Positions 28,241 to 53,487 of a stretch of DNA of 59,213 nucleotides are shown piece by piece. Location of the stretch: positions 1-59,213 of IMG/VR virus record IMGVR_UViG_3300033145_001323. One strand, written 5' to 3'. Each line of letters opens with the position of its first letter. Position 1 is the stretch's first letter. The stretch comes from a virus. The translations under genes and the position numbers were made by a program. A model generated the notes under the pieces. It had not been told where the DNA came from, ran no database searches, and saw only the letters and a list, made by a program, of their open reading frames with translations.

Positions 28241-28266
28241 AATTTATCACCTCCTTTTTTATTTTT

Positions 28267-28303: not shown

Positions 28304-28318
28304 CCTTTATGTTCAATT

Positions 28319-29707: not shown

Positions 29708-29896
29708 TTATCCACAGGCAAAACTCTTTTATGTCAAGCACATAATAACTTTACTTTGTCAATAGAATATAATCAAATCAAAACAAGCCCGAACTAATAA
29801 ACCTTGACAGTTTATCTTTAATATTGTGAAACATTTGTGAAACTATCGCTTGTTTTATTGTTTGTTGTTGTGTTTGTTTGTTGTTTGTTGTGAAAC
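29708..29896 (+). other. origin-like gap: DnaA box plus three TGTGAAAC iterons
   Basis: The 29516-30052 gap has no gene. It holds a plus-strand TTATCCACA (29708-29716), the only one in this orientation, and TGTGAAAC at 29825-29832, 29836-29843 and 29889-29896, inside an A/T-rich stretch with many GTTTGTTG repeats. This composition is typical of iteron replication origins, but no initiator gene has been recognised. Confidence 0.4.
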
Positions 29897-30052
29897 TTCT
29901 TTTTTTTTATTTATTTATGTTTGTTGTAGAACTTTAACAGATAACCATTTATTCAAAACAAACCAAGAAAAAAAAACAAAAGACAAAAAGAACGCCTCCC
30001 CACCATCATTCCCGACTGAGAAAAATTCCACAGATTCGCCTCTTTACAATAA

Positions 30053-30090
30053 TAAAAAAACAAGGTATAGTATTAAACCACTTACCTTGT
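30053..30090 (-). terminator. intrinsic terminator
   Basis: ACAAGGTA/TACCTTGT (8 bp) is followed on the minus strand by seven T. It ends the transcript of the HNH endonuclease gene, 36 bp after its stop. Confidence 0.75.
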
Positions 30091-30126
30091 CTTTCTACTG
30101 AAAATTTTTTCTCAAAAACGCCTGAT

Positions 30127-38443: not shown

Positions 38444-38974
38444 ATGAGCGCACTTAGTGCTAACTTAGACACTAAGAGAAAAGATGGAGAAATTATTAGT
38501 TATCCTGTAAAGGCCAGTACTACTATTTACAAAGGTGCTTTAGTTGTAGATTTAGGAACTGGGTATGCTTCAGTAGGAGCTGATACAGATAACTGTGTTT
38601 TTCTCGGCGTTGCGGTAGAAAAAGTGGTTAATAGTGGTAATGATGGAGATGAAAGTATCCGACTTTATAAAACTGGAAGCTTTCTGTATTCAAAAACATC
38701 AGCAGTCCAAACTGATATTACAAGTCCTATGTATATCTCAGATGATCAGACTGTTAGTACTGCTACTAGTCACTTGATTCTTGTTGGTCCTTGCGTAGAT
38801 GTGCCTGATAGTTCTCACGTTAGAGTTAGAATTGATCCAGATGCATTTAGAACAGCATCAGTGGTAGCATCTTTCAGTCCATCAGTATCACCATCCGTTA
38901 GCCCGTCGGTATCACCATCTGTGAGCCCGTCGGTATCACCATCTATAAGCCCATCTGTTAGTCCATCAACATAA
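38444..38974 (+). CDS. capsid decoration protein (DUF2190-like) with S-P-S-x tail (176 aa)
   Basis: Residues 1-140 (YPVKASTTIYKGALVVDLGT, VFLGVAVEKVVNSGNDGD, ILVGPCVDVPDSSHVRVRI) resemble DUF2190-type head cement proteins, which sit between protease and major capsid genes in Mu-like phages. The last 34 residues are FSPSVSPSVSPS-type repeats. That tail would point outward from the capsid, and it matches the long repeats of the 1516-aa protein. Its stop overlaps the capsid ATG. Confidence 0.72.
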   Translation: MSALSANLDTKRKDGEIISYPVKASTTIYKGALVVDLGTGYASVGADTDNCVFLGVAVEKVVNSGNDGDESIRLYKTGSFLYSKTSAVQTDITSPMYISDDQTVSTATSHLILVGPCVDVPDSSHVRVRIDPDAFRTASVVASFSPSVSPSVSPSVSPSVSPSVSPSISPSVSPST

Positions 38975-39915
38975 TGATTACTAGAGGCGATATACCTAAA
39001 TTATTAACAGCTGGAATGAGAACAGAGTTTATGGGTGCATACGAGAAAGCAACTTCGGACTATGATAGAATTACGACTACATTAGATTCTAAAAAGTCTG
39101 AGGAAACATATCCATTTCTTGGGGCTGTTCCTAAGATGAAAGAATGGAAGGATGAAAGAACAGAGGAAGATTTGACCGAATACTACTTTAGTGTGTCAAA
39201 CTATAGCTGGGAAAGTACAATCTCAGTTGATAGGGATGCGATTGAAGATGACCAGTATGGACAAGTCAAAATCCGTGTCAGAGAATTGGCTGTTGAAGCC
39301 AAAAGATTCTTTGATGAATTGGTTTTTGGTTTAATCCTACAGGGCGAAAATACAACTGGTAGTTCTGGTTCTCTTTTTGAGAACAAGACTGTTAGTTGCT
39401 ATGACGCTAAAGCTTTTTACGCAACCAATCACAGTGAAGGAGATTCTGGAACACAATCTAACCTCGGAAGTTCTGCTTTGAGCGCGACCGCTCTGCAGAC
39501 AGCAATCACAGCAATGGTAAACTTCAAGGATGACAAAGGAAAACCATCTCACGTTAGACCTAATGTATTAGTTGTTGCTCCTGGCAATGAATGGGAAGCT
39601 AAGGAACTCTTAAAGTCCACTTACTACCCAGAAGAAGGAACAACTACTACCAAATTAGCAACAAACGTATTAAAAGGTTCTCTCGATTTAGTCATCAGTC
39701 CATACTTGACAGATGCAGACGCCTGGTATCTTTTTGATACTACACATGTAATGCGACCACTCATTCTTCAAATGAGAAGGGCACCTGAATTCAAAAGCCT
39801 AATTGGTGATACCGAATCAGCCTTCTTAAGGAAGAAATGGTATTATGGTTGCGACTGGCGAGGATTTGTTGCTTGGGGTAACTGGCGACTTGGATACGCA
39901 TCCACTCCCGCTTAA
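38974..39915 (+). CDS. major capsid protein, Mu gpT-like (313 aa)
   Basis: The pattern MKEWKDERTEEDLTEYYFSV, NYSWESTISVDRDAIEDDQY, GQVKIRVRELAVEAKRFFDE, and the C-terminal FLRKKWYYGCDWRGFVAWGN is that of Mu-type gpT major head subunits. The length of 313 is typical. Its codon use is richer in G/C than its neighbours, as expected for a highly expressed gene. A 1-base overlap couples it to the decoration gene. Confidence 0.93.
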   Translation: MITRGDIPKLLTAGMRTEFMGAYEKATSDYDRITTTLDSKKSEETYPFLGAVPKMKEWKDERTEEDLTEYYFSVSNYSWESTISVDRDAIEDDQYGQVKIRVRELAVEAKRFFDELVFGLILQGENTTGSSGSLFENKTVSCYDAKAFYATNHSEGDSGTQSNLGSSALSATALQTAITAMVNFKDDKGKPSHVRPNVLVVAPGNEWEAKELLKSTYYPEEGTTTTKLATNVLKGSLDLVISPYLTDADAWYLFDTTHVMRPLILQMRRAPEFKSLIGDTESAFLRKKWYYGCDWRGFVAWGNWRLGYASTPA

Positions 39916-40028: not shown

Positions 40029-40685
40029 ATGAAAAAAATAATAAAAGAGAGAATAAAAACAAAATTAGCAATAGGGATACCAACATTAGGAACAGTAGAT
40101 TATAGATTCGCAAGTTCTTTAATGACATTAGGAATTCCAGAAAACACAAAAGTGGTTTGGTTGCCACGAGTAATGATAGATTTTGCTCGTAATCAAATTG
40201 TTAGGAAGGTGATAGAAGACCCTGATTATGAGTATGAAAGTGTATTATTTCTAGATGATGATATGACAATCCCACCAGATGTTTATTTTAGATTAAATGA
40301 ACATAATAAGGATATAGTCGGTGTTTTAGCATTTAAACGTAGAGGCGATTTTGCACCATGTGTATATACAAAAAAAGATGAACAGTTTTTTCCGATTATT
40401 CCTAAAGAATTTTGTGAAGTGAATGCGATAGGGTCATCGGTTTTACTTATTAAAACTGAAGTTTTTAAAAAAATAAAATACCCTTGGTTTGAAACTTTTT
40501 TCGATAAAGAAGGAAAACATTGGTCTGTTGATATGGATTTTTCCAAGAAGGCTGAAAAAGCTGGGCTCAAAATACATTGTGACCCGAGTATAGAAATCGG
40601 ACATATCGGTGACCCACCAATTATTACTCATCAAGACTTTTTTAAACAAATTAAATTAATGAAAGGAGAGAATAAAAATGATTAG
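40029..40685 (+). CDS. GT-A glycosyltransferase (218 aa)
   Basis: TKLAIGIPTLGTVDYRFASS, then VMIDFARNQIVRK, and the metal-binding DDD motif in VLFLDDDMTIPPDVY (76-78). VDMDFSKKAEKAGLKI and IGHIG complete the usual C-terminal half. The chosen start is ATG at 40029; an upstream TTG is ignored. First gene after the head module and of the glycan island. Confidence 0.8.
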   Translation: MKKIIKERIKTKLAIGIPTLGTVDYRFASSLMTLGIPENTKVVWLPRVMIDFARNQIVRKVIEDPDYEYESVLFLDDDMTIPPDVYFRLNEHNKDIVGVLAFKRRGDFAPCVYTKKDEQFFPIIPKEFCEVNAIGSSVLLIKTEVFKKIKYPWFETFFDKEGKHWSVDMDFSKKAEKAGLKIHCDPSIEIGHIGDPPIITHQDFFKQIKLMKGENKND

Positions 40686-40944
40686 TATAGAAAAAACATC
40701 ATCGGGACTTATAGTTAGTGGCAATACAAGAATGGTTGCTATAATACTTACAGCTGGTTCAGATGCTGCTACTGTGGTAGTAGATGATAGCACGGATGGT
40801 AGTGGAAGTGTTTTAGCTACTTTAAAAACAGTAGCTAATACAAGTAGACCCTTTACGATTGGACATCCTGGAATTAAAGCATCAGATGGATTGTATGTGA
40901 CAATAACAGGTACAGACCCTAAGGTCTATGTTGTTTATAGGTAA
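40678..40944 (+). CDS. small beta protein of the structural region (88 aa)
   Basis: MISIEKTSSGLIVSGNTRMV, AATVVVDDSTDGSGSVLATL, IKASDGLYVTITGTDPKVYV. This is a common short all-beta phage protein beside capsid and tail genes; it is probably a head-surface or head-tail protein. An AAAGGAGAG site precedes it, inside the glycosyltransferase 3' end. Confidence 0.6.
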   Translation: MISIEKTSSGLIVSGNTRMVAIILTAGSDAATVVVDDSTDGSGSVLATLKTVANTSRPFTIGHPGIKASDGLYVTITGTDPKVYVVYR

Positions 40945-40973
40945 AACATTTTATTAAAAATAAAGGAGAGACT

Positions 40974-41093
40974 ATGAAAAAAGCTATTAAATATAAAATT
41001 AATAGTCATTATTACACTATTAAGTCGAGTGCACATTGGTGCACAGATTTTCAATCAAATATAGACCAAAATATAGCCCTGACCATCTTGTAA
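40974..41093 (+). CDS. micro-ORF carrying a GTGCAC dyad (39 aa)
   Basis: MKKAIKYKINSHYYTIKSSA with an ideal AAAGGAGAG site 3 bp upstream. It contains the dyad (41029-41044) and its end overlaps the terminator stem at 41075. It could be a leader peptide or a read-through control point. Confidence 0.35.
   Translation: MKKAIKYKINSHYYTIKSSAHWCTDFQSNIDQNIALTIL
41029..41044. promoter_or_regulatory. GTGCAC dyad, copy 10 (minus orientation)
   Basis: The reverse complement is the exact consensus GTGCAC-CAAT-GTGCAC. It lies 31 bp before the terminator. Confidence 0.65.
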
Positions 41094-41118
41094 ATTATAT
41101 GGTGTGTGGGGCTTTTTA
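41075..41118 (+). terminator. intrinsic terminator after the head module
   Basis: AGCCC-tg-ACCAT pairs with ATGGT-(gtgtg)-GGGCT, followed by TTTTTATTT. The remaining part of the 41119-41325 gap holds promoter 4 and no gene. Confidence 0.65.
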
Positions 41119-41142
41119 TTTGACTTATTTAAAAAAGAAAAA

Positions 41143-41171
41143 TTGACCTTTTAGGGGAATATGTAAGAATA
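41143..41171 (+). promoter_or_regulatory. rightward TTGACC promoter 4 (glycan island), weak -10
   Basis: TTGACC (41143-41148) is followed at 17 bp by a poor -10 (AGAATA). Placement after a terminator and before the glycosyltransferases supports it. Confidence 0.4.
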
Positions 41172-41325
41172 GTATTATCAATGATAATGAAATTTTTAAA
41201 AGTCAGTTAAAGACATTATATATTTACTTTTGGTTATTTATAGAAGAAAGTCTCTCCTAACTTTTGTAAATATTTCAAAAGAATTAATAAATATATAGAG
41301 TCCTAGAGACCATTTTTTAATTATT

Positions 41326-42201
41326 ATGAAATTATCAGTTATTATACCATCATATCGCGACCCACTCTTACAAAAAACTATCGATTCAATCCTCGAAAAT
41401 TCTGAGGGAGATATTGAAGTCATACCTGTTTTAGATGGTTATCGACAAGATATTAAAAAAAACCCCAGAGTTAATGTTATTCAGTATGATAATAATAAAG
41501 GAACTCGAGGAGCTATTAATGCTGGATTAGAAGTGGCTAAAGGAGATTTTGTAGCTAAAATTGATTCTCATTGTATAGTTGCACAGGGTTTTGATAAAAT
41601 TATGTGTGATAATTGTGCTGAAGATTGGCTATTAGTTCCTAGACGTTATTCATTAGATGAAATAAATTGGAAAAGAGATGATAAAAGACCAATATGTGAT
41701 TATCATTTTCTCAATTTTCCAGTAGATTCAGAATATGGTTATGGTATGTTTGCTCAACCTGACTTTAATAAAACACATCACTATAGACACTTAATGATAG
41801 ATGATACAATGAGTATGCAAGCTAGTTGTTGGTTGGCTAATAAAAAGTATTTTATGGAGCATATTGGATTTTTAGATAATAGAAAGGAAAGATATGGATG
41901 TTATGGAGGAGAATATATAGAAATAGGATTAAAATATTGGTTAGGAGGAGGGGTAATGAAGGTTAATAAAAAAACATGGTATGCACACCTTTCGAAACGC
42001 CAACATCATTACGATAAAGAGATATATACTCGATCATATAAACAAATAACTACTGTAAATCGTAATTGGTCAACAAAACATTGGATTAATAATGAAGAAC
42101 CTAATATGAAGTATAAGTTCGAATGGTTTATCGAAAAATTTTGGCCAATACCTACGTGGGAAGATAATTGGCAGGAAATTTGGAATAGTTATAATTTATA
42201 A
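41326..42201 (+). CDS. GT2 glycosyltransferase (291 aa)
   Basis: LSVIIPSYRDPLLQKTIDSI, EVIPVLDGYRQDIKKNP, GTRGAINAGLEVAKGDFVAK, and IDSHC (DxH metal site), then an acceptor half with GLKYWLGGGVMKVNKKTWYA. It ends with WFIEKFWPIPTWEDNW, a tail shared with the enzyme at 52461. Typical family-2 fold, full length. Confidence 0.9.
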   Translation: MKLSVIIPSYRDPLLQKTIDSILENSEGDIEVIPVLDGYRQDIKKNPRVNVIQYDNNKGTRGAINAGLEVAKGDFVAKIDSHCIVAQGFDKIMCDNCAEDWLLVPRRYSLDEINWKRDDKRPICDYHFLNFPVDSEYGYGMFAQPDFNKTHHYRHLMIDDTMSMQASCWLANKKYFMEHIGFLDNRKERYGCYGGEYIEIGLKYWLGGGVMKVNKKTWYAHLSKRQHHYDKEIYTRSYKQITTVNRNWSTKHWINNEEPNMKYKFEWFIEKFWPIPTWEDNWQEIWNSYNL

Positions 42202-42205
42202 TATT

Positions 42206-43018
42206 ATGGATATAAAATTAAGTGTTATACTTCCTTCTTATAAGGATCCTATGCTTCACAAAACAATAGACGATTTATTAAAAAATTCAGAACTTGGAAA
42301 TAAATTAGAAATTATTCCAGTTTTGGATGGTTATTGGCCGACAAAACCAATTAAGAATGATCCAAGAATTAAGATAGTTCATTTAGGAGGAAATAGAGGA
42401 ATGAGAGGAGCAATTAATGCTGGAGTAACTGTTTCGAATGGAGAGTTTTTTATGAGATTAGACGAACATTGTTCTTTTGGAAAGGGATATGACAGAATTT
42501 TAACTGAGTCATGTAAACCTAATCAAATTATGACAGCTAGACGGTATTTCCTAGATCCTGTTAAATGGGAAAAAATAGACATGCCATATATTGATTATGA
42601 AAAACTTGTAATCCAAGATTGTGGAAATGGTGTTAAGAAGTTTGCTGGACAGCGATGGAGAAGCCGAGATAAGGAACGTAAAGATATTATGGTTGATGAA
42701 ACTACTGCTATGCAGGGGAGTATGTGGATAATGCCGAGGAAGTGGTGGGATGATATTATAGGTGGTGAATTACAAACAGAAGGTTATGGACCGACATATC
42801 AAGATTCTGTTGAAGTTACTATGAAAACATGGCAGGCTGGCGGAAAATTAATGCTTAACAAAAATACATGGTTTGCTCATAAACATCGCAGTTTTTCAAG
42901 AACTCATCAAGAGGGTAGTCCAGAGAATCCATCAAATAGAGAAAATAGCTGGAAACATTCATTAGAAGTGTGGGGGGATTATTATCAAAAAGAAATAAAG
43001 CCAAAATGGAAAATATGA
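42206..43018 (+). CDS. GT2 glycosyltransferase (270 aa)
   Basis: A paralogue of the preceding gene: LSVILPSYKDPMLHKTIDDL, IPVLDGYW, RGMRGAINAGVTVSNGEF, LDEHCSF (metal site), and MKTWQAGGKLMLNKNTWFAH. The two arose by tandem duplication and have diverged in the acceptor half. Confidence 0.9.
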   Translation: MDIKLSVILPSYKDPMLHKTIDDLLKNSELGNKLEIIPVLDGYWPTKPIKNDPRIKIVHLGGNRGMRGAINAGVTVSNGEFFMRLDEHCSFGKGYDRILTESCKPNQIMTARRYFLDPVKWEKIDMPYIDYEKLVIQDCGNGVKKFAGQRWRSRDKERKDIMVDETTAMQGSMWIMPRKWWDDIIGGELQTEGYGPTYQDSVEVTMKTWQAGGKLMLNKNTWFAHKHRSFSRTHQEGSPENPSNRENSWKHSLEVWGDYYQKEIKPKWKI

Positions 43019-43176
43019 AAGAAAAAAAACATACAATTTGTGAAATTTGTGGAAAAGAAATAATTGGTGAAATAACATATTTTGAAGATGGTATGAGAAT
43101 ACATTCAAAAGACGAAAATCCAGAATGTATTGAAGAGGCTGCAAGACAAGATGTAGAAATGTATCCAAGTAAATAA
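43015..43176 (+). CDS. zinc-knuckle protein (53 aa)
   Basis: MKEKKHTICEICGKEIIGEI then a His and Cys further on. The start at 43015 overlaps the upstream TGA (ATGA). Function unknown. Confidence 0.55.
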   Translation: MKEKKHTICEICGKEIIGEITYFEDGMRIHSKDENPECIEEAARQDVEMYPSK

Positions 43177-43177
43177 A

Positions 43178-43852
43178 ATGACCGATTTAACAATTATTTT
43201 CCTTACAATAAATAAAGTTCCTAAAAAATGGGCAGAGTACCAAAAAAAAGTTTTATTGGAAGCAATTGAAGATACGCCTGTTATTACGATTTCAAAGAAA
43301 CCATTAGATTGGGGAACTAATTTAATACAAGATAAGCCAATAAGTTCTTCTAATGTTTATTGGCAAATGTTACAAGGAGCTAAAATGGCTAAAACACCTT
43401 ATATTGCTATAGCCGAAGATGATACTCTATATCCAAAAGAACATTTTAAATTTAGACCAAAACTAGATGAATTTGCTTATAATATGAGTCATTGGGGATT
43501 ATTTACTTGGGGAAAGCCAACATATTTCTGGGGATATAGGATAGTTAATAGTACTTTAATTGCTCCGAGAGATTTATTAATTAAAGCATTAGAAGAAAGA
43601 TTTGATAAGTACCCTAAAGGAACATCAGATGGAAGAACTGGTGAGTTAGGTCGGTATGGTATTGAATCAAAATTAAGATTACCTCACTATAAATGTAAAG
43701 TTTTTCATTCTATTGTTGCAGTTGTTAGTTTCCAACATGATTATTCTCTTGACCATTTACAAAGAAGTCATCGTAAAAAAATGGCTCCAATAAGAGCTTA
43801 TGATATTCCGCATTGGGGCCGAGCAGAGGAACTTGTAAAATATTTTATATGA
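43178..43852 (+). CDS. GT-A-fold glycosyltransferase-like protein (224 aa)
   Basis: LTIIFLTINKVPKKW, PVITISKKPLDWGTNL, AKTPYIAIAEDDTLYPKEHF. The EDD of the last motif takes the place of the metal-binding DxD. It shares this plan with the proteins at 47327 and 50752, so the three form an island-specific family. Catalytic activity is inferred. Confidence 0.7.
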   Translation: MTDLTIIFLTINKVPKKWAEYQKKVLLEAIEDTPVITISKKPLDWGTNLIQDKPISSSNVYWQMLQGAKMAKTPYIAIAEDDTLYPKEHFKFRPKLDEFAYNMSHWGLFTWGKPTYFWGYRIVNSTLIAPRDLLIKALEERFDKYPKGTSDGRTGELGRYGIESKLRLPHYKCKVFHSIVAVVSFQHDYSLDHLQRSHRKKMAPIRAYDIPHWGRAEELVKYFI

Positions 43853-44451
43853 ATATAATTACTTATACATCTATTACTAATAAAAAAGATGTGATTAGGC
43901 AAGATATAAAAGTTTTTTCAAAATATGACAAGTTCAAAAGTCCAGTACTCAATGCTAAAATCTACAAAATATTACCTCATAAATTCTTAGATTGTGATAT
44001 TAGTATTTGGGTAGATGGAAATATTTATTTAGTAAAAACCCCAGAAGAAGTAGTTAAGGATTGGTTAGGTGATAATGATATGGCATTTTTCAGACATTAT
44101 AAGAGTAAAAATCTTGATTGGGAATTAAAGTGGATAAAATATGTTTGGCGTAGTAGGGATAGAAAGGTCTATGAAGAAGCCATTAAACAAGTCGAACATT
44201 ATGAAAAAATTGGACTACCAAAAAAAGAAGATATGGCAATGGGAGGAGTTATTATTAGAAAACATAGTCCATTAGTAGAAAAATTTAATGAAGCGTGGTG
44301 GTCAGAAATATGTCGATGGGGACAGCGAGATCAATTAAGTCTACCAATGATATTAAAACAATTTCCTGAATTAAAAATTAATCGTATTAATGAAAATATC
44401 AAAACCACTCCGAATTTACGATATGAAACACATAATCATTTTAATACATGA
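43849..44451 (+). CDS. DUF616-like glycosyltransferase (200 aa)
   Basis: SKYDKFKSPVLNAKIYKILP, CDISIWVDGNIYL, DMAFFRHYKS, MAMGGVIIRKHSPLVEKFNE, WWSEICRWGQRDQLSLPMIL. These match DUF616, a GT8-like family found in polysaccharide loci. The start at 43849 overlaps the previous TGA. Confidence 0.82.
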   Translation: MNIITYTSITNKKDVIRQDIKVFSKYDKFKSPVLNAKIYKILPHKFLDCDISIWVDGNIYLVKTPEEVVKDWLGDNDMAFFRHYKSKNLDWELKWIKYVWRSRDRKVYEEAIKQVEHYEKIGLPKKEDMAMGGVIIRKHSPLVEKFNEAWWSEICRWGQRDQLSLPMILKQFPELKINRINENIKTTPNLRYETHNHFNT

Positions 44452-45269
44452 GAATTCTCCTAATACATGCAGATAGATATCCATGGGCAACAACTCATAG
44501 AGCAGAAGCATTTAAAAAAGAATGGAAAGAAGATGAAGTTGATATTGCTTATATCAAAAGCTTACCAGATGGTGATAAGTATAATGTTATTCATGTTTTA
44601 TTTGGATGTGGAATAAGCAAGATAAAGGATTATATTCTGAAATATAAACATAAGACATTTACTTCACTTGCTTCTCGAAGAACATTAGAGTCAATGCTTG
44701 ATAAAAGAGAAGATTTAATAGAAATTTACCAGAAGTCAGTTTGTTGTGTTGCACAAAATCCGCTTTTAGCAAGTCAGTTAAAATCGTTGATCCAACAAGA
44801 TAATGTTGTTTATATTCCTAATGGAGTAGATATAGAACTTTTTAACAGACCATTCATAGTTGGATATGTTGGAGAAGGACATTCTATCAATCGAAAACGC
44901 AAGGGTTACCATATAGTAAAAGAAGTATGTGAAAATTTAGGACTTGATCTTAAAACTGCTAATGATTTGCCCTATGAAAAAATACCTGAATTTTATAGGC
45001 AAATAGATTGTTTGGTAATTTTAAGCGATGATGAGGGCTGTAATAATCCAACTTTAGAAGCATTAGCCATGAATAAGCCAGTAATATCAACCAATGCTGG
45101 AATTGCTGAAGAATTAGAAGGAGTTATCTTAGTTGATAGAAATGTTGAAAGTGTTATAATGGCATTAAGGAAATTAAGTGGAAGAATTCATATTTTAGAG
45201 AAATATACTTGGAAAATTATATCACAGAAATATAAGCAAATATATGTGGAAAAACTCGGAATTAAATAA
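44448..45269 (+). CDS. GT4/GT-B glycosyltransferase (273 aa)
   Basis: A short GT-B enzyme: IPNGVDIELF, FIVGYVGEGHS, KIPEFYRQIDCLVILSDDEG, and the nucleotide-sugar motif NNPTLEALAMNKPVISTNAG. The N-terminal Rossmann half is compact. It overlaps the previous gene by ATGA. Confidence 0.9.
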   Translation: MRILLIHADRYPWATTHRAEAFKKEWKEDEVDIAYIKSLPDGDKYNVIHVLFGCGISKIKDYILKYKHKTFTSLASRRTLESMLDKREDLIEIYQKSVCCVAQNPLLASQLKSLIQQDNVVYIPNGVDIELFNRPFIVGYVGEGHSINRKRKGYHIVKEVCENLGLDLKTANDLPYEKIPEFYRQIDCLVILSDDEGCNNPTLEALAMNKPVISTNAGIAEELEGVILVDRNVESVIMALRKLSGRIHILEKYTWKIISQKYKQIYVEKLGIK

Positions 45270-46005
45270 ATTTTATAATCATAAGTTTGATTTTGATAAT
45301 CAATATAAAGATAATTATAATGATTGGTTGAAAGCATTTGAAAAGTCTATTAAGAAACATGCAATAGATAATTGTTTTATAGGATTATCTTCTGGTTATG
45401 ATAGCGGGGTATTAAATAAAGAACTTTTAAAACAAGAAGTAGATTTTAAAGCATATGCTGTTTTTAATAATGAGAATAAAGAAGTGTTGAATAAAAGATT
45501 AAGTTATATTCTTAATTATCAAATAATCACAATGAATAGAATTTTGTGGCAAAAGTATTATGATTTTTTAAAAGGCAAAATAAATGATAAAGCAATAAAA
45601 GACAAAGCATCTATGGGCATAGCTTGTATATTTGAAATAGCTAAAGATGAAGGTAGAACAGTTTTTTTATCAGGGCAAGGAGCCGATGAAATTTATAGCG
45701 ATTATTCGCTTTTTCCTAGGCAAAGTACATTCAAGGGAATATATCCAGATAAATTATATGAGTGGCCGAATTTTCGCGGATATATGCAATTAGAATATCT
45801 TAATGGATTAGAAGATATAGCGAAAGTTTATGATATTGAAATTTGTTATCCATTTTTAGATGTAGATTTAATACAAGAATTTCTTTGGTTGAAAGTAGAA
45901 CTTAAAAATAAAAATTATAAAGCTCCTCTTTATCAGTATTTAACTAGGAATAAAATCCCTTTTGATGAAAATATTAAAAAGGGATTTCGTCCTGTTACTA
46001 CTTAA
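45244..46005 (+). CDS. asparagine-synthetase-like PP-loop amidotransferase domain (253 aa)
   Basis: The PP-loop SSGYDSG (49-55) and FLSGQGADEIYSDY (141-154) identify the synthetase half of AsnB-type enzymes; the N-terminal glutaminase is absent. The C-terminal part (EICYPFLDVDLIQEFLWL) fits as well. Such stand-alone domains adenylate a carboxylate for amide formation. In this island the substrate may be a sugar acid or a glycan-linked residue (inference). Confidence 0.82.
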   Translation: MWKNSELNKFYNHKFDFDNQYKDNYNDWLKAFEKSIKKHAIDNCFIGLSSGYDSGVLNKELLKQEVDFKAYAVFNNENKEVLNKRLSYILNYQIITMNRILWQKYYDFLKGKINDKAIKDKASMGIACIFEIAKDEGRTVFLSGQGADEIYSDYSLFPRQSTFKGIYPDKLYEWPNFRGYMQLEYLNGLEDIAKVYDIEICYPFLDVDLIQEFLWLKVELKNKNYKAPLYQYLTRNKIPFDENIKKGFRPVTT

Positions 46006-46009
46006 AATT

Positions 46010-46585
46010 ATGACAAAATTATGTAAATTAGCATATAAATATGGCACTGATAAATGTCCTCAAATATCTCATCCATATACACCCTTTTATTATGAATTAT
46101 TTAAGGATAAAAGAAATTCTATAAAAAAGGTTATTGAGGTTGGAATTGGTTCTAGAAGCACTATGCACTATCATCAAACCCATTATGTAACTGGTGCAAG
46201 TTTATATATGTGGCGTGACTTCTTTCCAAATGCTCAAATTTATGGAGTAGATATTCTTCCAGAAACAATGCTTGAAAGTGAACGAATAGAAACTTTTCTA
46301 TATGACCAAACAAAAAAAGAAGACTTAGAAAAGTTAATTGAAAAGACAGGTTCAGATATTGATATTTTTGTGGATGATGGATTACATTCTATGACTACTC
46401 AGGTAAATCTTTGTGAGGCTATAATGCCTATGCTTAAAAAAGATGTTATTTATATTATTGAAGATGTAATGTGGCCTAATAGAATTATTAGGGTGTTAAC
46501 TCAATATGATTGCTTCTCACCAGTTTTTCATGGGGCACAGCGTAAGGAGAATGTAATTATTATTAAAAACAAAGAAATAGACTAA
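46010..46585 (+). CDS. class I SAM methyltransferase (191 aa)
   Basis: LAYKYGTDKCPQISHPYTPF, VIEVGIGSRS (motif I), ASLYMWRDFFPNAQIYGVDI, and DIDIFVDDGLHSM. This is the type of small-molecule/sugar O-methyltransferase found in antibiotic and surface polysaccharide loci (CmcI/MycE-like). ATG at 46010 is chosen, just after the upstream stop. Confidence 0.8.
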   Translation: MTKLCKLAYKYGTDKCPQISHPYTPFYYELFKDKRNSIKKVIEVGIGSRSTMHYHQTHYVTGASLYMWRDFFPNAQIYGVDILPETMLESERIETFLYDQTKKEDLEKLIEKTGSDIDIFVDDGLHSMTTQVNLCEAIMPMLKKDVIYIIEDVMWPNRIIRVLTQYDCFSPVFHGAQRKENVIIIKNKEID

Positions 46586-46596
46586 ATATCAAAGAT

Positions 46597-47340
46597 ATGA
46601 AAAATCTTTTAATCTATATAAATGATAGAAAATGGTTCAATAAAGAGAACGAAATTTTTTTTAAGATTCAGATTGATAATAGTTTGGAGTTAGGCTGGAA
46701 ACCTAAGGATATAGTATTTATTGCCAATTTTGATTATGAATATAATGGAGTTAAATCATTATTAGTTCCTGATAATATATGTTGTGAAGGATGGGAAAAG
46801 TCAACAAAGACTATGGCAACTATATATTTATTCGATAATAATCTTATCCATGACGATATATATTGGTGTCATGATTTAGATGCTTGGCAACTAGAACCTA
46901 TTTCGGAGGAAGAATTAGATTTAAACAAAGATGTCGGTTTTTGTGATTATGGTAGAAAGCCAATGTGGCAATTAGGAAGTTATTTTTTTAAAAATACAGC
47001 TGGAGATATTTTTAGGGATATTGCTAATAGAGTAAAGCCAGGTTATGACTTATCTGGTCATGAATACAATGATGAATATGCTTTATTAAGTTTGACCTAT
47101 AATAATATTAATGGTATTAATAATAGAATAAAACGCATGAATATTACTTATGATTTTGGAATGAGGAAAATTGAACTTTGTTATCAAAAAGCCAATAAAC
47201 CCTTAAAAGTATTACATTTTTATCCTTATCTTAAATCAATGAATACACTTAAAATTGCAATGTATGGTAAGAATAGGATAAATAAACCATTAATGAATGA
47301 GAGATTAATTAAGATATTTAAAAAATATGGCATTAAGTAA
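46597..47340 (+). CDS. glycosyltransferase-like protein, paralogue of 48021 (247 aa)
   Basis: MKNLLIYINDRKWFNKENEI, QIDNSLELGWKPKDIVFIAN, DIYWCHDLDAWQLEPI, then LGSYFFKN and HFYPY. The HDLDA motif fits a metal-binding DxD of a GT-A fold. Together with 48021 it forms a pair of about 50% similar proteins. Confidence 0.65.
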   Translation: MKNLLIYINDRKWFNKENEIFFKIQIDNSLELGWKPKDIVFIANFDYEYNGVKSLLVPDNICCEGWEKSTKTMATIYLFDNNLIHDDIYWCHDLDAWQLEPISEEELDLNKDVGFCDYGRKPMWQLGSYFFKNTAGDIFRDIANRVKPGYDLSGHEYNDEYALLSLTYNNINGINNRIKRMNITYDFGMRKIELCYQKANKPLKVLHFYPYLKSMNTLKIAMYGKNRINKPLMNERLIKIFKKYGIK

Positions 47341-48019
47341 ATTAGTTAGTATTATATATTGTACTAGCAATCAGGAAGCTTTAGAATTTGAACAACGAAT
47401 TAAGGATAATATTTTAAAGGTTTGTGGAAATCTTCCAATTATTAGCGTATCTCAGAAACCTATAGATTTTGGCAAGAATATTTGTGTAGGTGATGATGTG
47501 GGTGTTTCAGGATTCAATTTTTTCCGCCAAGTCCAAATAGCCTGTGAAACAGCAAAAACAAAATTCGTAGTATCAGCCGAAGCAGATTGTTTATATCCTA
47601 AAGATTATTTTGAATTTATTCCACCGACAGATGATAAATGTTATAGAAATAGCAATTTGTACGTTATGGCTCATAAACGACCCATCTTTTGGAAGAAAGA
47701 AGAAGGAGCAACACATGCTCAAATAATTAGTAGAGAGTATTATTTAAAAAGATTAAATAAATTATTTAAAGGAGCACCCCAATGGTGTGCTGAAGAAAAG
47801 AATTTTCCAAGAGAAAGGCATAGAAAAGTAGATGTATTTGAGCCTAATGAAATTATACATTATCAAACTAAAAACCCTGTAGTTCAGATTAAAACAAGTA
47901 GTTCGATGAGGCACTATACTTGTAGTGACAGAAAAGATAGATATAATATTCCATACTGGGGGGGTAGTATAAAATTTAGAGAAAAATATTACGATATAAA
48001 AAAGGGAAGAAAACATTAA
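47327..48019 (+). CDS. GT-A-like protein (230 aa)
   Basis: VSIIYCTSNQEALEFEQRIK, PIISVSQKPIDFGKNICVGD, KFVVSAEADCLYPKDYFEFI. Member of the same family as 43178 and 50752. Overlaps the upstream gene by 14 bases. Confidence 0.7.
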   Translation: MALSKLVSIIYCTSNQEALEFEQRIKDNILKVCGNLPIISVSQKPIDFGKNICVGDDVGVSGFNFFRQVQIACETAKTKFVVSAEADCLYPKDYFEFIPPTDDKCYRNSNLYVMAHKRPIFWKKEEGATHAQIISREYYLKRLNKLFKGAPQWCAEEKNFPRERHRKVDVFEPNEIIHYQTKNPVVQIKTSSSMRHYTCSDRKDRYNIPYWGGSIKFREKYYDIKKGRKH

Positions 48020-48020
48020 T

Positions 48021-48803
48021 ATGAAAAACTTATTACTTTGGATACATCCTAAAAAGACATTTTGGGACAAATATGAACGAAATCTACCCGCTTTGGTAAA
48101 GATTCAAATTGACAATAGTTTGGATTTGGGTTGGAAAAGAGAAGACATAGTGTTAGTAACTAATTTCCCATATGAATATAATGGTATTAAAGCAAGAGTT
48201 ATAGAGGATTCTTATTATTGTGAACATTGGGGTAAGTCTAGTAAGATTCCCGTAATAATCAAACTTTTAAAAGATGGCACGGTTAAGCCAGGAGAATTGT
48301 GGTGGTTTCATGACTTTGACGCTTTTCAAGTTCACCCCATAACAGAAGAGGAGCTTGAATTGGGTTATGCAGTAGTCGGTTTTACAGACTATGGATGGTT
48401 TAAAAAATGGAATACAGGAAGTATATTTTTTAAAAAGAATTCAATTAAAGTATTTGAATGGTTAAGAAATGAACTTCAGAAACTTCAGATTGATGAAGAA
48501 AGAGCATTGGAATCTTTGACAAAAAGAAATTATCAATATATTAATAGTTATTATAAAAGATTAAATATAACCTATAACTTCCCATGTGGTTTAAATGGAC
48601 AAAGAAGATTACATATTACTGAGCCAATGGCAACAAAACCAATTAAGATACTGCATTTTCATCCAGAATATTCATATTCTTATAATAAAATTAATCTTTT
48701 GAATGGTATATGTGGTGATAATGAGTTAAAAATTAATTTTGTGGGGGATCGGTTACTTAAAATATTTAAGAAACATTTACCTCATTTATGTCCTAAAAAA
48801 TAA
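48021..48803 (+). CDS. glycosyltransferase-like protein, paralogue of 46597 (260 aa)
   Basis: MKNLLLWIHPKKTFWDKYER, QIDNSLDLGWKREDIVLVTN, LWWFHDFDAFQVHPI, then ILHFHPEY. Same architecture as 46597; the pair 46597-47327 followed by 48021 suggests a duplicated module. Confidence 0.65.
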   Translation: MKNLLLWIHPKKTFWDKYERNLPALVKIQIDNSLDLGWKREDIVLVTNFPYEYNGIKARVIEDSYYCEHWGKSSKIPVIIKLLKDGTVKPGELWWFHDFDAFQVHPITEEELELGYAVVGFTDYGWFKKWNTGSIFFKKNSIKVFEWLRNELQKLQIDEERALESLTKRNYQYINSYYKRLNITYNFPCGLNGQRRLHITEPMATKPIKILHFHPEYSYSYNKINLLNGICGDNELKINFVGDRLLKIFKKHLPHLCPKK

Positions 48804-48816
48804 ATATATTAGTAAT

Positions 48817-49461
48817 ATGAAATTAATTAACGCTATTAATAATGAAAAAGGAAGTCCATATTGGGTCCCAGATTGCACACGTGATGAATTACCTGAATTA
48901 TTTAAAGAACTCGGTTTTAAAATAGGAGCTGAAATAGGAGTTTCATTGGGACTTAATTTAGAATTATATTGTAAGGCTGGTTTTCAAATGTATGGAATTG
49001 ACCAGTGGGAAGATTATGAAGACGAAAAATATAGACCCATATCATGGTTAGCTAGAAGAGGAATAATAACTAAAACATTTGATGATGTATATAGAATGGC
49101 AAATGAAAGATTATCTAAATATTCTAATTGTACTTTAATTAAAAAAATGTCAATGGATGCTCTGGCTGACATTCCTGATTGTAGTCTAGATTTTGTTTAC
49201 ATAGATGGCAACCATATGTATGGATATGTTGCTATGGATCTAATGCAGTGGTCAAAAAAGATTAGAAAAGGTGGAATTATATCGGGGCATGATTATTATG
49301 ATATGAAAGGTGATAAATGTATTCGTCAAGTTGGACATGCAGTTGACGGATTTATTAAATCATTTAACATAGACAATTGGTATGTTTTAGGTCGTAAGCA
49401 TCCAAAAGAAGGAGAAAAAACAGAACGAATATTGAGCTTCATGCTCATTAAAAACTGGTAA
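48817..49461 (+). CDS. SAM methyltransferase, tandem copy 1 (214 aa)
   Basis: INNEKGSPYWVPDCTRDELP, GAEIGVSLGLNLELYC (motif I), MYGIDQW, SLDFVYIDGNHMYGYVAMDL, GGIISGHDYY. Methyltransf_24-type. The ATG at 48817 is preferred over an in-frame start 26 codons upstream, because the two downstream copies begin at the same point. Confidence 0.82.
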   Translation: MKLINAINNEKGSPYWVPDCTRDELPELFKELGFKIGAEIGVSLGLNLELYCKAGFQMYGIDQWEDYEDEKYRPISWLARRGIITKTFDDVYRMANERLSKYSNCTLIKKMSMDALADIPDCSLDFVYIDGNHMYGYVAMDLMQWSKKIRKGGIISGHDYYDMKGDKCIRQVGHAVDGFIKSFNIDNWYVLGRKHPKEGEKTERILSFMLIKNW

Positions 49462-49467
49462 AAAAAT

Positions 49468-50100
49468 ATGAAAATTATAGAAGGAATTAAGCATAAAGGT
49501 CATCCATATTACATTCCTGATTGTTCTAGAGATGATTTACCTGAATTTTTTAAGGAATTAGGGTTTAAGGTCGGGGCTGAAATTGGAGTTTCTGATGGTA
49601 AAAATCTTGAAAAATATTGTAAGGCAGGACTTACAATGTATGGTATTGACCCATGGAGTAATGATGATGATGATATTTATAACAATCCTTTCAATAAAAC
49701 TAAACCATATAAAAATATGGGTGATGTTTACAATTTGGCAGTTGAAAAATTATCTTCATATCCTAATTGTACTCTAATCCGCAAAACATCTTTAAATGCA
49801 CTTAAAGATATTCCTAAACGCAGTTTAGATTTTGTTTATATAGATGGTAATCATATGTATGGATATGTTGCTATGGATTTAATGTCATGGGCTCATAAAG
49901 TAAAAAAGAGTGGGATTATAGCAGGACATGATTATTATCGCATTGGGGGTAGTAGAACTACTCGTCAAATTAAACCTGCAGTAGAAGGATATATTAAAGC
50001 ATTTGATATAGACCATTGGTATGTTTTGGGCAAAAAAGAGCCTCGTAGTGGGGAAATTAATGATAAAGAATTAAGTTTTATGTTTTTTAAGCATTGGTAA
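49468..50100 (+). CDS. SAM methyltransferase, tandem copy 2 (210 aa)
   Basis: HKGHPYYIPDCSRDDLPEFF, VGAEIGVSDGKNLEKYC, MYGIDPW, SLDFVYIDGNHMYGYVAMDL. Closely related to copy 1. Confidence 0.82.
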   Translation: MKIIEGIKHKGHPYYIPDCSRDDLPEFFKELGFKVGAEIGVSDGKNLEKYCKAGLTMYGIDPWSNDDDDIYNNPFNKTKPYKNMGDVYNLAVEKLSSYPNCTLIRKTSLNALKDIPKRSLDFVYIDGNHMYGYVAMDLMSWAHKVKKSGIIAGHDYYRIGGSRTTRQIKPAVEGYIKAFDIDHWYVLGKKEPRSGEINDKELSFMFFKHW

Positions 50101-50123
50101 TTAATAATTAAAAAAATAAATAT

Positions 50124-50747
50124 ATGAAAATAAAAGAAGCAATTACACAAAAAGGTAGTCCATTTCATATCCCTGACTGTAGTAGAGATGAATTACCTAA
50201 GTTTTTTAAAGAAATAGGTTTTACAGTCGGAGCGGAAATCGGTGCATATAAGGGGGCGTTTACCGAAGTGTTTTGTAAAGAAGGATTAAAAATGTATGCC
50301 ATAGATCCGTGGATGGCATATGGAGGGGCTGGTAGAACACAGAAAAAACAGGATCGACAAGATTTTTTATATAAGCATACTGAACGAACATTAGCGCCAT
50401 ATGATGATTGTAAAATTATTAGAAAAACCTCAGTAGATGCATTAAGTGATTTTAAAGATGATTCACTGGACTTTGTTTATATAGATGGCGACCATGAATT
50501 TAGCCACATTGCTACAGATATAGTAGAATGGACGAAGAAGGTTAAGGTTGGAGGAGTGGTGTCGGGGCATGATTATTTTTGCACCGATCCACATGCAAGA
50601 AACCTTGTATGTCATGTTGGACCTATTATTGATGCTTATGTAAAAGTTTTTGGTATAGAAAATTTCTATACTTTAGGGCGAAGTAAGCCATTAAACAAAG
50701 AAGCCAAAGACGATAAATATTTAAGTTGGATGTTTTTTAGAAAATAA
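50124..50747 (+). CDS. SAM methyltransferase, tandem copy 3 (207 aa)
   Basis: QKGSPFHIPDCSRDELPKFF, VGAEIGAYKGAFTEVFC, MYAIDPW, SLDFVYIDGDHEFSHIATDI. More diverged than copies 1 and 2, so the substrate may differ. Confidence 0.82.
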   Translation: MKIKEAITQKGSPFHIPDCSRDELPKFFKEIGFTVGAEIGAYKGAFTEVFCKEGLKMYAIDPWMAYGGAGRTQKKQDRQDFLYKHTERTLAPYDDCKIIRKTSVDALSDFKDDSLDFVYIDGDHEFSHIATDIVEWTKKVKVGGVVSGHDYFCTDPHARNLVCHVGPIIDAYVKVFGIENFYTLGRSKPLNKEAKDDKYLSWMFFRK

Positions 50748-50751
50748 AATT

Positions 50752-51507
50752 ATGAATAATAAAGAAAAAGGAATTATTTTTTACACTGATAGTAGAATTA
50801 AGTCTCCAGTTAAGGAAGTAGTAATGGACTTGATTAAAAAAGCAGAATTGCCTATTGTTTCGTGTTCACTTCAACCATTAGATTTTGGTAAAAATGTAGT
50901 GTTTGATGGAGAGAGAGGGTATTGTTCTATGATTACGCAAATAAAGATTGCCCTAGAAAACCTTGATACTAAGTATGTTTTCTTTAATGAACATGATGTC
51001 CTTTATCCAAAAAGTCATTACGATTTTACCCCATCAAAAGATGATGTTTTTTATTATAACATTAATGCATGGAGATGGTGGATTGTGGGTGGGTGGGCTA
51101 TCACATATGACCAGCTTCATTCACTTTCAGGAATGTGTTGTAATAGGGAATTTGCTTTAGAGCATTATAAAGCAAGAATAAGGAAGATGGAAGAGTTGGG
51201 ATTGGATAAATTTAGAAGTAGAGAGCCAAGATATGCAAGAAAATTTGGGTACGAACCAGGCACTAAACCAAGGCGAAGAGGAGGATTCTCGGATGATGTA
51301 TTTGAAACTTGGAAATCCGAAAAGCCTATTGTAGACATACGACACACCAGAACATTTTCTGCTCCGAAAATATGTCTGGAGGATTTCAAGCATGTCCCGT
51401 CGAATTGGAAACAAATCGATTACAAGGACATTCCTGGATGGAATCTTGATGAATTATTGGATATAGAGAATATTCCTCTTCCATTTTCACTTTTAAAAAA
51501 CCGATAA
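50752..51507 (+). CDS. GT-A-like protein (251 aa)
   Basis: GIIFYTDSRIKSPVKEVVMD, PIVSCSLQPLDFGKNVVFDG, KYVFFNEHDVLYPKSHYDF. Third member of the 43178/47327 family, with EHD in place of EDD. C-terminal region is specific. Confidence 0.68.
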   Translation: MNNKEKGIIFYTDSRIKSPVKEVVMDLIKKAELPIVSCSLQPLDFGKNVVFDGERGYCSMITQIKIALENLDTKYVFFNEHDVLYPKSHYDFTPSKDDVFYYNINAWRWWIVGGWAITYDQLHSLSGMCCNREFALEHYKARIRKMEELGLDKFRSREPRYARKFGYEPGTKPRRRGGFSDDVFETWKSEKPIVDIRHTRTFSAPKICLEDFKHVPSNWKQIDYKDIPGWNLDELLDIENIPLPFSLLKNR

Positions 51508-51509
51508 AT

Positions 51510-51809
51510 ATGAAAGGATATGATATTGATGGAGTTATCACAAATAAAGTTATACCAGAAAAGGGTTCAGTGATTATATCTGGACGAACTTTTGCTGAAT
51601 ATGATGATTTAGTAAAACAATTAGCTCAAACTTATCTAGTGTATATTAGAGGAATTGGAAAATACGGAGATAAGGAAGCTGCTGGTAAATTTAAAGCAAT
51701 GATGATTAAGTATCTTAAAATAACTGAATTTTATGAAGATGATGATGTTCAGATTAAAATTATTAAAAAAGAAAATCCCAATTGTTTAATACATAAAATA
51801 GTTCTTTAA
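51510..51809 (+). CDS. HAD-like protein (99 aa)
   Basis: It begins MKGYDIDGVITNKVIPEKGS, with the DxDGVxT motif I of HAD hydrolases. It continues SVIISGRTFAEYDDL (motif II-like Ser) and ITEFYEDDDVQIKII (DD of motif IV). A minimal HAD without a cap, plausible as a sugar-phosphate phosphatase in this island. Confidence 0.65.
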   Translation: MKGYDIDGVITNKVIPEKGSVIISGRTFAEYDDLVKQLAQTYLVYIRGIGKYGDKEAAGKFKAMMIKYLKITEFYEDDDVQIKIIKKENPNCLIHKIVL

Positions 51810-51822
51810 GGAGGTGATAAAG

Positions 51823-51993
51823 ATGAGGCACTTAGTAAATATTCAAATACTTGAAGAAGATGGTTATGAATTGGTTGAGAAAGCATTTATTAAGTATTTA
51901 GAGCAGACTGGCAAGTTTAATGTAACGCAGTTCGACAGGATGGAGATTATTTCTTCAAGGGAAATCAAAAAGGGCAAAGAATCGCCAAAATAA
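51823..51993 (+). CDS. hypothetical protein (56 aa)
   Basis: MRHLVNIQILEEDGYELVEK, a helical acidic part, and a basic tail. It has a strong AAGGAGGTGATAAAG leader, unusual in this arm. A GGGG/CCCC hairpin without a T run follows its stop. Not recognised. Confidence 0.5.
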   Translation: MRHLVNIQILEEDGYELVEKAFIKYLEQTGKFNVTQFDRMEIISSREIKKGKESPK

Positions 51994-52039
51994 CAATGGG
52001 GGGAATTAAAAACTCCCCTCAAATAATAAATAAAATATT

Positions 52040-52471
52040 ATGAAAAATATAAAATTAACACAGGGGAAATCCACATTGGTGGATGATGAGGATTTTGAGT
52101 TTTTGAATCAATGGAAGTGGTATATTAGTAGTCATAATTATGCAACAACGACTGTGGTTCCTCATTTATATATGCATAGAATTGTGAATAAAACTCCAAA
52201 GGGTCTTTTAACAGATCATATTAATAGGAATACACTCGATAATAGAAAAATAAATTTAAGAGTGGCTGATAAAAGATTAAATAGCATAAACAGTGGATTG
52301 CAATCGAATAATACCTCTGGTTATAGGGGTATTTCTTGGAATAAACGACGTAGTAAATGGGAAACTTATATTTGGAATAATGGATTAAGAATCCAGTTAG
52401 GAAATTATAAAATAATAAAAGATGCTGTTTTTGCAAGAAAACAAGCAGAACTAAAATACCATGCAATATAA
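52040..52471 (+). CDS. HNH/AP2 homing endonuclease (143 aa)
   Basis: IKLTQGKSTLVDDEDFEFLN, YMHRIVNKTPKGLLTDHINR, NTLDNRKINLRVADKRLNSI (HNH), and NTSGYRGISWNKRRSKWETY with LGNYKIIKDAVFARKQAELK (AP2 DNA-binding domain). A typical free-standing phage homing endonuclease. It overlaps the next glycosyltransferase gene by 11 bases. Confidence 0.9.
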   Translation: MKNIKLTQGKSTLVDDEDFEFLNQWKWYISSHNYATTTVVPHLYMHRIVNKTPKGLLTDHINRNTLDNRKINLRVADKRLNSINSGLQSNNTSGYRGISWNKRRSKWETYIWNNGLRIQLGNYKIIKDAVFARKQAELKYHAI

Positions 52472-53438
52472 ATTATCAGTTTGTTTACCAGCAAGAAACG
52501 AAATGTTTCTTAAAAATACAGTTGAAGATATATTAAAAAACAAGGAAGACGACACAGAAATTATTGTCGGATTAGATGGTGAATGGGCGAATCCTCCACT
52601 AATCCAACACCCAGACGTAAATGTGATTCATGTTCCTAAAGCTATTGGTCAAAGAGGAATCACAAATTTATGTGTAAAACTAAGTAAGGCAAAGTATATA
52701 ATGAAGGCAGATTCACACTGTTCCTTTGATAAGGGCTTTGACCGTAAAATGATAGAAGGATTCAAAAAAACAGGTGATAATGTAACGGCTGTGCCGATTA
52801 TGCGGAATCTCTGGGCCTATGACTGGAAATGTTATCACTGTGGATGGAAGAAATATCAAGGTCCAACTCCTGAAAAATGTGAACAATGTGGTAAAACTGA
52901 TAAAATTAGGAGAAAAATGCTCTGGATAGGTAAACATAATCCTCAATCTGTTAGTTATTGTTTCGATTCAGAACCACATTTTCAATATTTTGAGGATTAT
53001 AAACATAGAGAACCATATTTAACAGATATAAAAACTGGATTCACAGAAACAATGAGTTTACAGGGTTCGTGCTTTATGTGCACAAGAGATAAATATTGGG
53101 AACTCAAATTATGTGATGAAGAGTTTGGTTCATGGGGCAATCAAGGAATAGAATTGACTTGTAAAACATGGTTATCTGGTGGAAAAGTACTAATTAATCA
53201 TAATACTTGGTATGCCCATATGTTTAGAACTCAAGGTGGAGATTTCTCTTTTCCTTATGAACAAAGAGGAGGAGACGTTGCAAGAACAAAGGCAAAAATA
53301 AGAAAACAAGTTTGGTTGGGTAAACTACCTGGACAAAAATTGCCCTTAAGTTGGTTAATAAAGCGTTTTATGCCGATTCCTGGGTGGGATGAAGAGAAAA
53401 TAAAAGAATTGAAGAAAAGTGAAAAAAAGATGAAATAG
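52461..53438 (+). CDS. GT2 glycosyltransferase with inserted zinc ribbon (325 aa)
   Basis: LSVCLPARNEMFLKNTVEDI, IIVGLDGEWANPPL, GQRGITNLCVKLSKAKYIMK, and ADSHC (metal site). Then a zinc ribbon (WKCYHCGWKK...EKCEQCGK, about residues 125-150) is inserted before the acceptor half (TETMSLQGSCFMCTRD, CKTWLSGGKVLINHNTWYAH). The tail WLIKRFMPIPGWDEEKIKEL recurs in the fragment at 53524. Confidence 0.88.
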   Translation: MQYKLSVCLPARNEMFLKNTVEDILKNKEDDTEIIVGLDGEWANPPLIQHPDVNVIHVPKAIGQRGITNLCVKLSKAKYIMKADSHCSFDKGFDRKMIEGFKKTGDNVTAVPIMRNLWAYDWKCYHCGWKKYQGPTPEKCEQCGKTDKIRRKMLWIGKHNPQSVSYCFDSEPHFQYFEDYKHREPYLTDIKTGFTETMSLQGSCFMCTRDKYWELKLCDEEFGSWGNQGIELTCKTWLSGGKVLINHNTWYAHMFRTQGGDFSFPYEQRGGDVARTKAKIRKQVWLGKLPGQKLPLSWLIKRFMPIPGWDEEKIKELKKSEKKMK

Positions 53439-53463: not shown

Positions 53464-53487
53464 CCCACCCATTACAGGTGGGTTTTT
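53464..53487 (+). terminator. intrinsic terminator ending the glycan island
   Basis: CCCACC-CATTACA-GGTGGG followed by TTTTT. Confidence 0.88.

Follow-up and report, generated by a model that had tools for sequence, protein, structure and literature searches.

GT27-like glycosyltransferases beside Ser-Pro-Ser repeat proteins in an uncultured phage: a candidate protein O-glycosylation system

The virions of mycobacteriophages carry glycans at the C-termini of capsid and tail subunits, made by phage glycosyltransferases (GTs) (Freeman et al. 2023, as cited in PMC12619734), and the serine-rich repeat protein (SRRP) loci of Gram-positive bacteria give rise to strain-specific glycans (PMC6973325). 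In the polypeptide GalNAc-transferase GalNAc-T2, manganese is bound by Asp224, His226 and His359, and Phe361 is required for Pro-x-Pro acceptors (PMC4432651); this Phe is used by those GT27 isoenzymes that favour Ser/Thr-Pro-x-Pro contexts (PMC6994419). Here we describe positions 40029-53438 of the IMG/VR virus record IMGVR_UViG_3300033145_001323, an island rich in GT and methyltransferase genes. The whole record of 59,213 bases is referred to as the window, and its genes are named by their start coordinate, so that 52461 is the gene at 52461-53438. We propose, with a probability of about 0.62, that the phage uses the island to O-glycosylate proteins in the manner of the eukaryotic mucin-type system, the acceptors being serines in the Ser-Pro-Ser (SPS) repeats of the phage's own fibre and of a head protein. 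The proposal draws on four observations, namely the gene content, the similarity of one enzyme family to GT27 in fold and metal site, the maintenance of the repeats at the protein level and the recurrent linkage of enzyme and repeats. Our literature search found no paper on phage or Patescibacteria glycosylation of the GT27 plus SPS type.

GT27-like enzymes and their active site

Genes 41326, 42206 and 52461 encode one family, represented here by a profile (A1) of the three window proteins plus relatives. A preliminary description of the window had labelled such enzymes GT2, and they match PF00535, but their closest solved structures are the GT27 initiators of protein O-glycosylation and not GTs of lipid or polysaccharide synthesis. 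When profile A1 was compared with the PDB, the top seven matches were polypeptide GalNAc-transferases (from 1.2e-13 downwards), the best of which spans positions 6-273 of the 304 in the profile, whereas the best plain GT2 matches cover the N-terminal half only. An AlphaFold2 (AF2) model of 52461 was built with 33 sequences and reached a predicted local distance difference test (pLDDT) score of 91.9. The top 50 rows of a Foldseek search with this model were all GT27, as were the first 29 PDB entries after re-alignment, with Z of 23.9-27.4 compared with at most 19.9 for entries outside GT27; root-mean-square deviations from the GT27 structures were 2.4-3.4 over 257-283 residues, at 16-20% identity.

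The similarity extends to the residues that bind the metal and the acceptor. The counterparts of the three GalNAc-T2 metal ligands, D84, H86 and H253 in 52461, are invariant in 33/33 sequences, the counterpart of Phe361 (F255) is kept in 30/33, and the motif HxFR is found in 116/116 orthologues of 52461. The two other family members depart from this pattern at the aromatic position: 41326 keeps DSH with Ser in place of the Phe of HxFR, and 42206 keeps DEH with an HxHR variant. The ricin-type lectin domain is missing from 52461, a protein of 325 residues in which the catalytic-domain match covers residues 1-322 and which has no lectin Pfam match, and an N-terminal membrane anchor is missing too, the catalytic-domain match beginning at residue 1-3. 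For this reason we call the enzymes GT27-like and do not file them as members of GT27. Neither a tblastn search with 52461 nor a megablast search with the region gave a match in 50,697 GenBank phage records.

The nature of the fold match also bears on whether these GTs might hypermodify phage DNA. Phage GTs that glycosylate modified bases are known (Pyle et al. 2024, as cited in PMC12619734), but the closest structures here are protein-modifying GTs, the same gene cluster occurs in bacterial chromosomes, and thymidylate-synthase-type PF00303 was not found in the window by a search that gave matches in control genomes. A Tet_JBP (PF12851) search gave no match in its controls and carries no weight here. 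We consider modification of DNA to be highly improbable.

Ser-Pro-Ser repeat proteins and their linkage to the enzymes

The fibre-like protein encoded directly after the island contains 109 SPS motifs. SPSx repeats make up about 600 of its residues and fall into two stretches, in which x is mostly Ile, Val or Leu. Its serine codons mix the TCN and AGY types, and adjacent repeat units share fewer codons (0.21) than random pairs of units do (0.29), which indicates that selection keeps the protein sequence. A second protein with such repeats is the head protein 38444, which lies beside the major capsid protein (MCP) and terminates in eight SPSx units; in one relative (L005) three paralogues precede the gene for the capsid, and long SPS tails are present on two of them but not on the third. 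In other phages SPS tails terminate unrelated small proteins. In an SPSxSPSx array every Ser has Pro at -1/+3 or at +1/-3. A further SPS-containing sequence was noticed in the left-hand gene block of the window, where a 73-residue protein (5191-5412, minus strand) starts with SPSISPSI.

When viral contigs were scanned with the profile of the family, 359 relatives came up, the best 80 of which were analysed. An SPS-repeat open reading frame (ORF) is present in 67 of these 80 loci, in 54 cases downstream on the same strand at a median distance of 140 bp, and the 13 loci without one all end within 2252 bp downstream. Five or more SPS motifs in an ORF were found in 0/100 random viral loci (972 kb). 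The linkage also holds in the reverse direction, since a strong enzyme match is present in 21/44 SPS contigs and in 0/50 random contigs (Fisher p 4e-9); the SPS contigs come from a set defined by a DNA pattern, from which 72 of 118 new loci were discarded because translation showed that they were not true SPS repeats. The frequent placing of the GT27-like gene immediately 5' of the SPS gene is independent of the random-contig control. Other families travel with the pair in the 80 loci, namely homologues of 50752 or 47327 (about 75) and PF13578 methyltransferases (68), and more rarely the putative GT pair with a conserved DxD motif (29), DUF616 (6) and GT4 (6) enzymes. Of such contigs, 11/49 match the terminase family PF03237 above its cut-off and 1/50 has the gpT capsid, so that the module is carried by several phage lineages and not by one capsid lineage. 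The terminase count also rules out that all of the IMG/VR loci are bacterial fragments, although some of the others could be.

These findings have to be weighed against a simpler function for the repeats, as unmodified elastic spacers, with the glycan placed on other virion proteins such as capsid or tail or released as free polysaccharide. It is true that the SPS acceptors are putative and that one GT of the island, 40029, is tied to the capsid and not to the SPS proteins. However, mere spacers would not readily account for a two-way linkage far above random, for a metal site and an aromatic residue of GT27 type, or for the same pairing in cellular chromosomes without a capsid, and we regard this alternative as improbable.

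Cellular counterparts and the layout of the island

Among 84,980 bacterial and archaeal species scanned, 52 loci with relatives of the enzyme were found, nearly all in Patescibacteria; the same partner enzymes recur at many of them, together with an SPS protein encoded downstream. One locus lies in a complete Woesebacteria chromosome, where its neighbours include the genes for DnaA, the DNA polymerase beta clamp, GroEL, TsaD, a YidC-type insertase and tRNA synthetases. We considered whether the bacterial copies are prophages and judged this unlikely, since PF03237 terminase was found in 1/15 of these genomes, there on other contigs, and housekeeping genes flank the locus in the one chromosome; at other bacterial loci prophage remnants are possible. 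In a quick unrooted tree the window enzyme falls in a set of 62 rows, most of them viral (Shimodaira-Hasegawa-like approximate likelihood ratio test 98), with bacterial rows beside it, and a few phage rows are placed elsewhere. Transfer of the GT27-like gene between phage and cell, in either direction, appears likely, and the host of this phage is probably a Patescibacterium, judged by the GT27-like relatives only. Two side observations concern cellular members of the family. The bacterial proteins at loci L344, L346 and L351 (gene near 9990-11740) are 547-583 residues long and have a C-terminal extension of about 240 residues that matches no Pfam family, and a contig of a Micrarchaeota archaeon metagenome-assembled genome (L377) carries a relative of the 42206-type enzyme with an SPS ORF adjoining it.

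The cellular loci make it necessary to ask whether the phage enzymes modify the host instead, that is, an SPS surface protein or a polysaccharide of the host, for receptor masking or to block superinfection, in which case the phage SPS proteins would be mere stalks. Serotype-converting GTs are known from temperate phages (PMC12619734), and SPS proteins adjoin the same enzymes in patescibacterial loci, once in a complete chromosome among genes such as those for DnaA, GroEL and tRNA synthetases. In the phages, however, the repeats are on phage proteins, including a virion protein of the head, the enzyme gene often directly precedes the SPS gene, and Pfam and PHROG scans recognised no flippase or membrane GT in the island. 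The linked putative acceptors favour the virion over the host surface as the modified target, and we consider a host target unlikely.

The block 40029-53438 is a series of plus-strand ORFs with the MCP gene on one side and the fibre gene on the other (Table 1). Upstream, also on the plus strand, lie head genes for a portal (PF06074), a protease (PF04586), the small virion protein and the Mu-type capsid (PF10124). The preliminary description had counted about 11 GT-like proteins, four methyltransferases and an AsnB-like enzyme between capsid and fibre genes, and our count agrees with it, the GT and methyltransferase content being supported by Pfam and PHROGs. The eleven GT-like genes comprise the three GT27-like genes of PF00535 type, one Anp1/A197-like, one GT4 and one DUF616/TOD1_MUCI70 gene, three of a new GT-A family (one structure predicted) and the putative DxD pair; three methyltransferases exceed the Pfam cut-off and one (46010) has a sub-threshold match to PF13578. 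That description was likewise right to see an island of several glycan enzymes connected with virion genes, and its expectation of variable content was borne out, since gene content differs between the related contigs that were compared. Other parts needed correction. The HAD-like protein is present but weak. As to terminators as borders, the right-hand site is convincing, and the left-hand site, a weak hairpin, lies within the end of gene 40678; terminator-like sites as a whole are over-represented (14 against 7.1 +/- 2.9). The claim that the island has its own promoter is not supported, promoter-like sites being not in excess (88, compared with 97.8 +/- 8.7 in shuffles). The block itself is real, but it includes 40029, which belongs to a conserved capsid module, and an HNH/AP2 endonuclease, 52040, which is a probable homing passenger.

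Table 1. Features of the island and its flanks in the window
Feature	Position	Strand	Evidence or remark
Head virion structural (decoration-type) protein	38444..38974	+	phrog_1731 2.4e-24; C-terminal Ser-Pro-Ser-x tail 38876-38971, proposed O-glycan acceptor
Major capsid protein, Mu gpT type	38974..39915	+	PF10124 1.8e-59
GT-A-like glycosyltransferase of capsid module (STIV A197/Mnn9-like)	40029..40685	+	PDB profile matches, DxD
88-aa protein, MCP-adjoining in relatives	40678..40944	+	Conservation
GT27-like (polypeptide GalNAc-transferase-like) glycosyltransferase	41326..42201	+	PF00535; profile A1 member
GT27-like glycosyltransferase	42206..43018	+	PF00535; profile A1 member; 64-86% identity in relatives
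New GT-A family (ExD motif), copy 1	43178..43852	+	Homologous to 47327; no Pfam match
DUF616/TOD1_MUCI70 glycosyltransferase	43849..44451	+	PF04765 4.9e-17
GT4-type glycosyltransferase (GT-B)	44448..45269	+	PF13692 5.8e-11
AsnB-like PP-loop ATPase domain (Asn_synthase C-domain), without glutaminase domain	45244..46005	+	PF00733 7e-6
Methyltransferase	46010..46585	+	Sub-threshold PF13578/PF01728; phrog_21658 methyltransferase 4.8e-8
Putative GT, conserved DxD, copy 1	46597..47340	+	D98/D100 conserved; no PDB or Pfam match
New GT-A family, copy 2	47327..48019	+	AF2 pLDDT 94.7; best Z 13.4 against GT-A enzymes
Putative GT, conserved DxD, copy 2	48021..48803	+	Conserved DxD
Methyltransferase PF13578	48817..49461	+	6.6e-13
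Methyltransferase PF13578	49468..50100	+	1.5e-12
Methyltransferase PF13578	50124..50747	+	1.1e-14; best kept of three PF13578 copies in relatives (57-59%)
New GT-A family, copy 3	50752..51507	+	Homologue in 74/80 viral GT27-like loci, often adjoining GT27-like gene
Small HAD-like protein (weak)	51510..51809	+	phrog_3970 0.074 only; no Pfam support
HNH/AP2 homing-type endonuclease, outside glycan pathway	52040..52471	+	phrog_99 1.2e-32
GT27-like glycosyltransferase, proposed O-glycosylation initiator	52461..53438	+	AF2 pLDDT 91.9; GT27 fold match
Intrinsic terminator, island end	53464..53482	+	CCCACCCATTACAGGTGGG-TTTTTC
Fibre-like protein, proposed acceptor	53756..58306	+	N-terminal ~47-aa repeats, then Ser-Pro-Ser-x at residues 635-852 and 1002-1382

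Related contigs were found through the capsid, and three of them were long enough for comparison. The MCP gene, 40029 (at 50-81% identity) and 40678 stay together in all relatives whose sequence covers this part, which leaves 41326-53438 as the variable island in the strict sense. The profile of 40029, in which DxD is conserved, matches 2c0n (7e-4) and 3zf8 (1.2e-3) in the PDB, and a search with 40029 alone led to only two distant viral loci. Past the capsid unit the gene content shifts from one relative to another. Two relatives extend as far as the fibre; in both, the genes just before it are again a PF13578 methyltransferase, GT 50752 and GT 52461, and the fibre has about 300 Ser-Pro-Ser motifs. 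Extra genes of the relatives include a UDP-GlcNAc 2-epimerase, an NAD epimerase, an FkbM methyltransferase and a radical SAM protein; no gene for nucleotide-sugar biosynthesis was recognised in the island.

Among the remaining GTs, the 43178/47327/50752 family has no Pfam or PDB sequence match, and the AF2 model of 47327 has a GT-A fold whose matches are led by GT-A enzymes with no clear nearest family. PDB sequence searches gave no match for 46597/48021. The catalytic residues of the GT-like proteins are mostly intact: besides the DxH of the GT27-like enzymes, the ExD motif of the former family is invariant in 39 sequences and the DxD of the latter is nearly invariant in 24.

Several further observations were made in passing. 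In one close relative (G003; L006, 8868-10666) an insert of about 850 bp interrupts the capsid gene after about residue 94. The insert comes with a 234-residue ORF, probably an intron or intein that carries its own gene. The same contig encodes, at 27599-30361 of its reverse complement, a 920-residue fusion within its island, in which two GT2-like domains and one that resembles UDP-GlcNAc 2-epimerase were recognised by eye; the free homologue in another relative (G004) matches PF02350. On the minus strand of the window, 5761-7953 encodes an ATPase-like protein split by an intein that has a LAGLIDADG domain (PF14890, PF14528), 10035-11258 an RtcB RNA ligase (PF01139 8e-102) and 1983-3053 a TnpB/IS605 OrfB protein.

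Proposed pathway and comparison with known systems

In the pathway that we propose for O-glycosylation of the phage's own proteins, the SPS proteins would be translated first, and 52461, probably together with 41326 and 42206, would put the first sugar from a nucleotide donor on the serines of the repeats in the fibre and in the head decoration protein. The new GT-A family, the DxD pair and the DUF616 and GT4 enzymes could then extend the glycan with nucleotide sugars of the host, after which the methyltransferases, and perhaps the AsnB-like enzyme, would cap it, and the virion would be assembled last. The step-by-step assignment of these other GTs is speculation. The branching, methylation and amidation of the glycan suggested in the preliminary description are plausible. 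The outcome would be a dense glycan coat on the flexible C-terminal tails and stalks of the virion, which could serve in shielding, in binding to the host surface or in mimicry of host SPS proteins; since loci of Patescibacteria share the enzyme-repeat pair, the coat may imitate the surface of these bacteria or attach to it. The four observations named at the outset are what the analysis shows, and what we say of activity, acceptor, sugar, place of the glycan on the virion, host and purpose is inferred.

A number of points weigh against this interpretation. The lectin domain and anchor that are missing here are present in the closest characterised enzymes. Without the Phe of HxFR, 41326 and 42206 may catalyse another step, and with three GT27-like copies some could act on sugar. 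The main weakness of the linkage evidence lies in the random viral contigs, which as a control were not matched to the host lineage. In addition, the enzyme was present in only 5/380 Patescibacteria genomes, one of which was the centre of the sample, and the window's capsid was not found in these 380 genomes by a search that had no positive control, so that the assignment of the host is indirect.

A wider suggestion would be that mucin-type O-glycosylation, with a GT27-like initiator and encoded SPS acceptor tails, is not confined to eukaryotes but is also found in Patescibacteria and in several phage lineages that probably infect them, that it has moved between cells and viruses, and that it gives phages a host-like glycoprotein coat; we see the case for and against it as evenly balanced. 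What emerges from the analysis is a specific candidate pair of enzyme and acceptor by which proteins may be O-glycosylated in uncultured phages and in Patescibacteria, a group of which neither the surfaces nor the phages are well known. The result bears on the origin of the GT27 mucin-type enzymes and on the ways in which phages shield or mimic surfaces, and it points to a possible source of soluble, lectin-free GT27-like enzymes for glycoengineering.

Compared with described systems, the island shares with the SRRP loci a Ser-rich repeat protein and a variable GT cluster; there, glycosylation is coupled to an accessory Sec system, and no search for accessory Sec or for SRRP-type initiators was made here. 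Mycobacteriophage virion glycosylation, as cited in PMC12619734, has phage GTs in common with it, but here encoded repeat tails are the proposed acceptors and the GTs are many more. The capsid glycosylation of chlorovirus PBCV-1 also relies on virus-encoded GTs, and the PBCV-1 capsid GT 2p72 is among the fold matches of 47327. PBCV-1 differs in being a eukaryotic virus with another acceptor and other enzymes. With eukaryotic mucin-type O-glycosylation (CAZy GT27) the island has in common the predicted catalytic fold, the DxH and distal His, a Phe in the acceptor pocket and proposed Ser acceptors rich in Pro, whereas the phage and bacterial enzyme lacks lectin domain and anchor and the 52461-type has a Cys4 insert (CxxC...CxxC).

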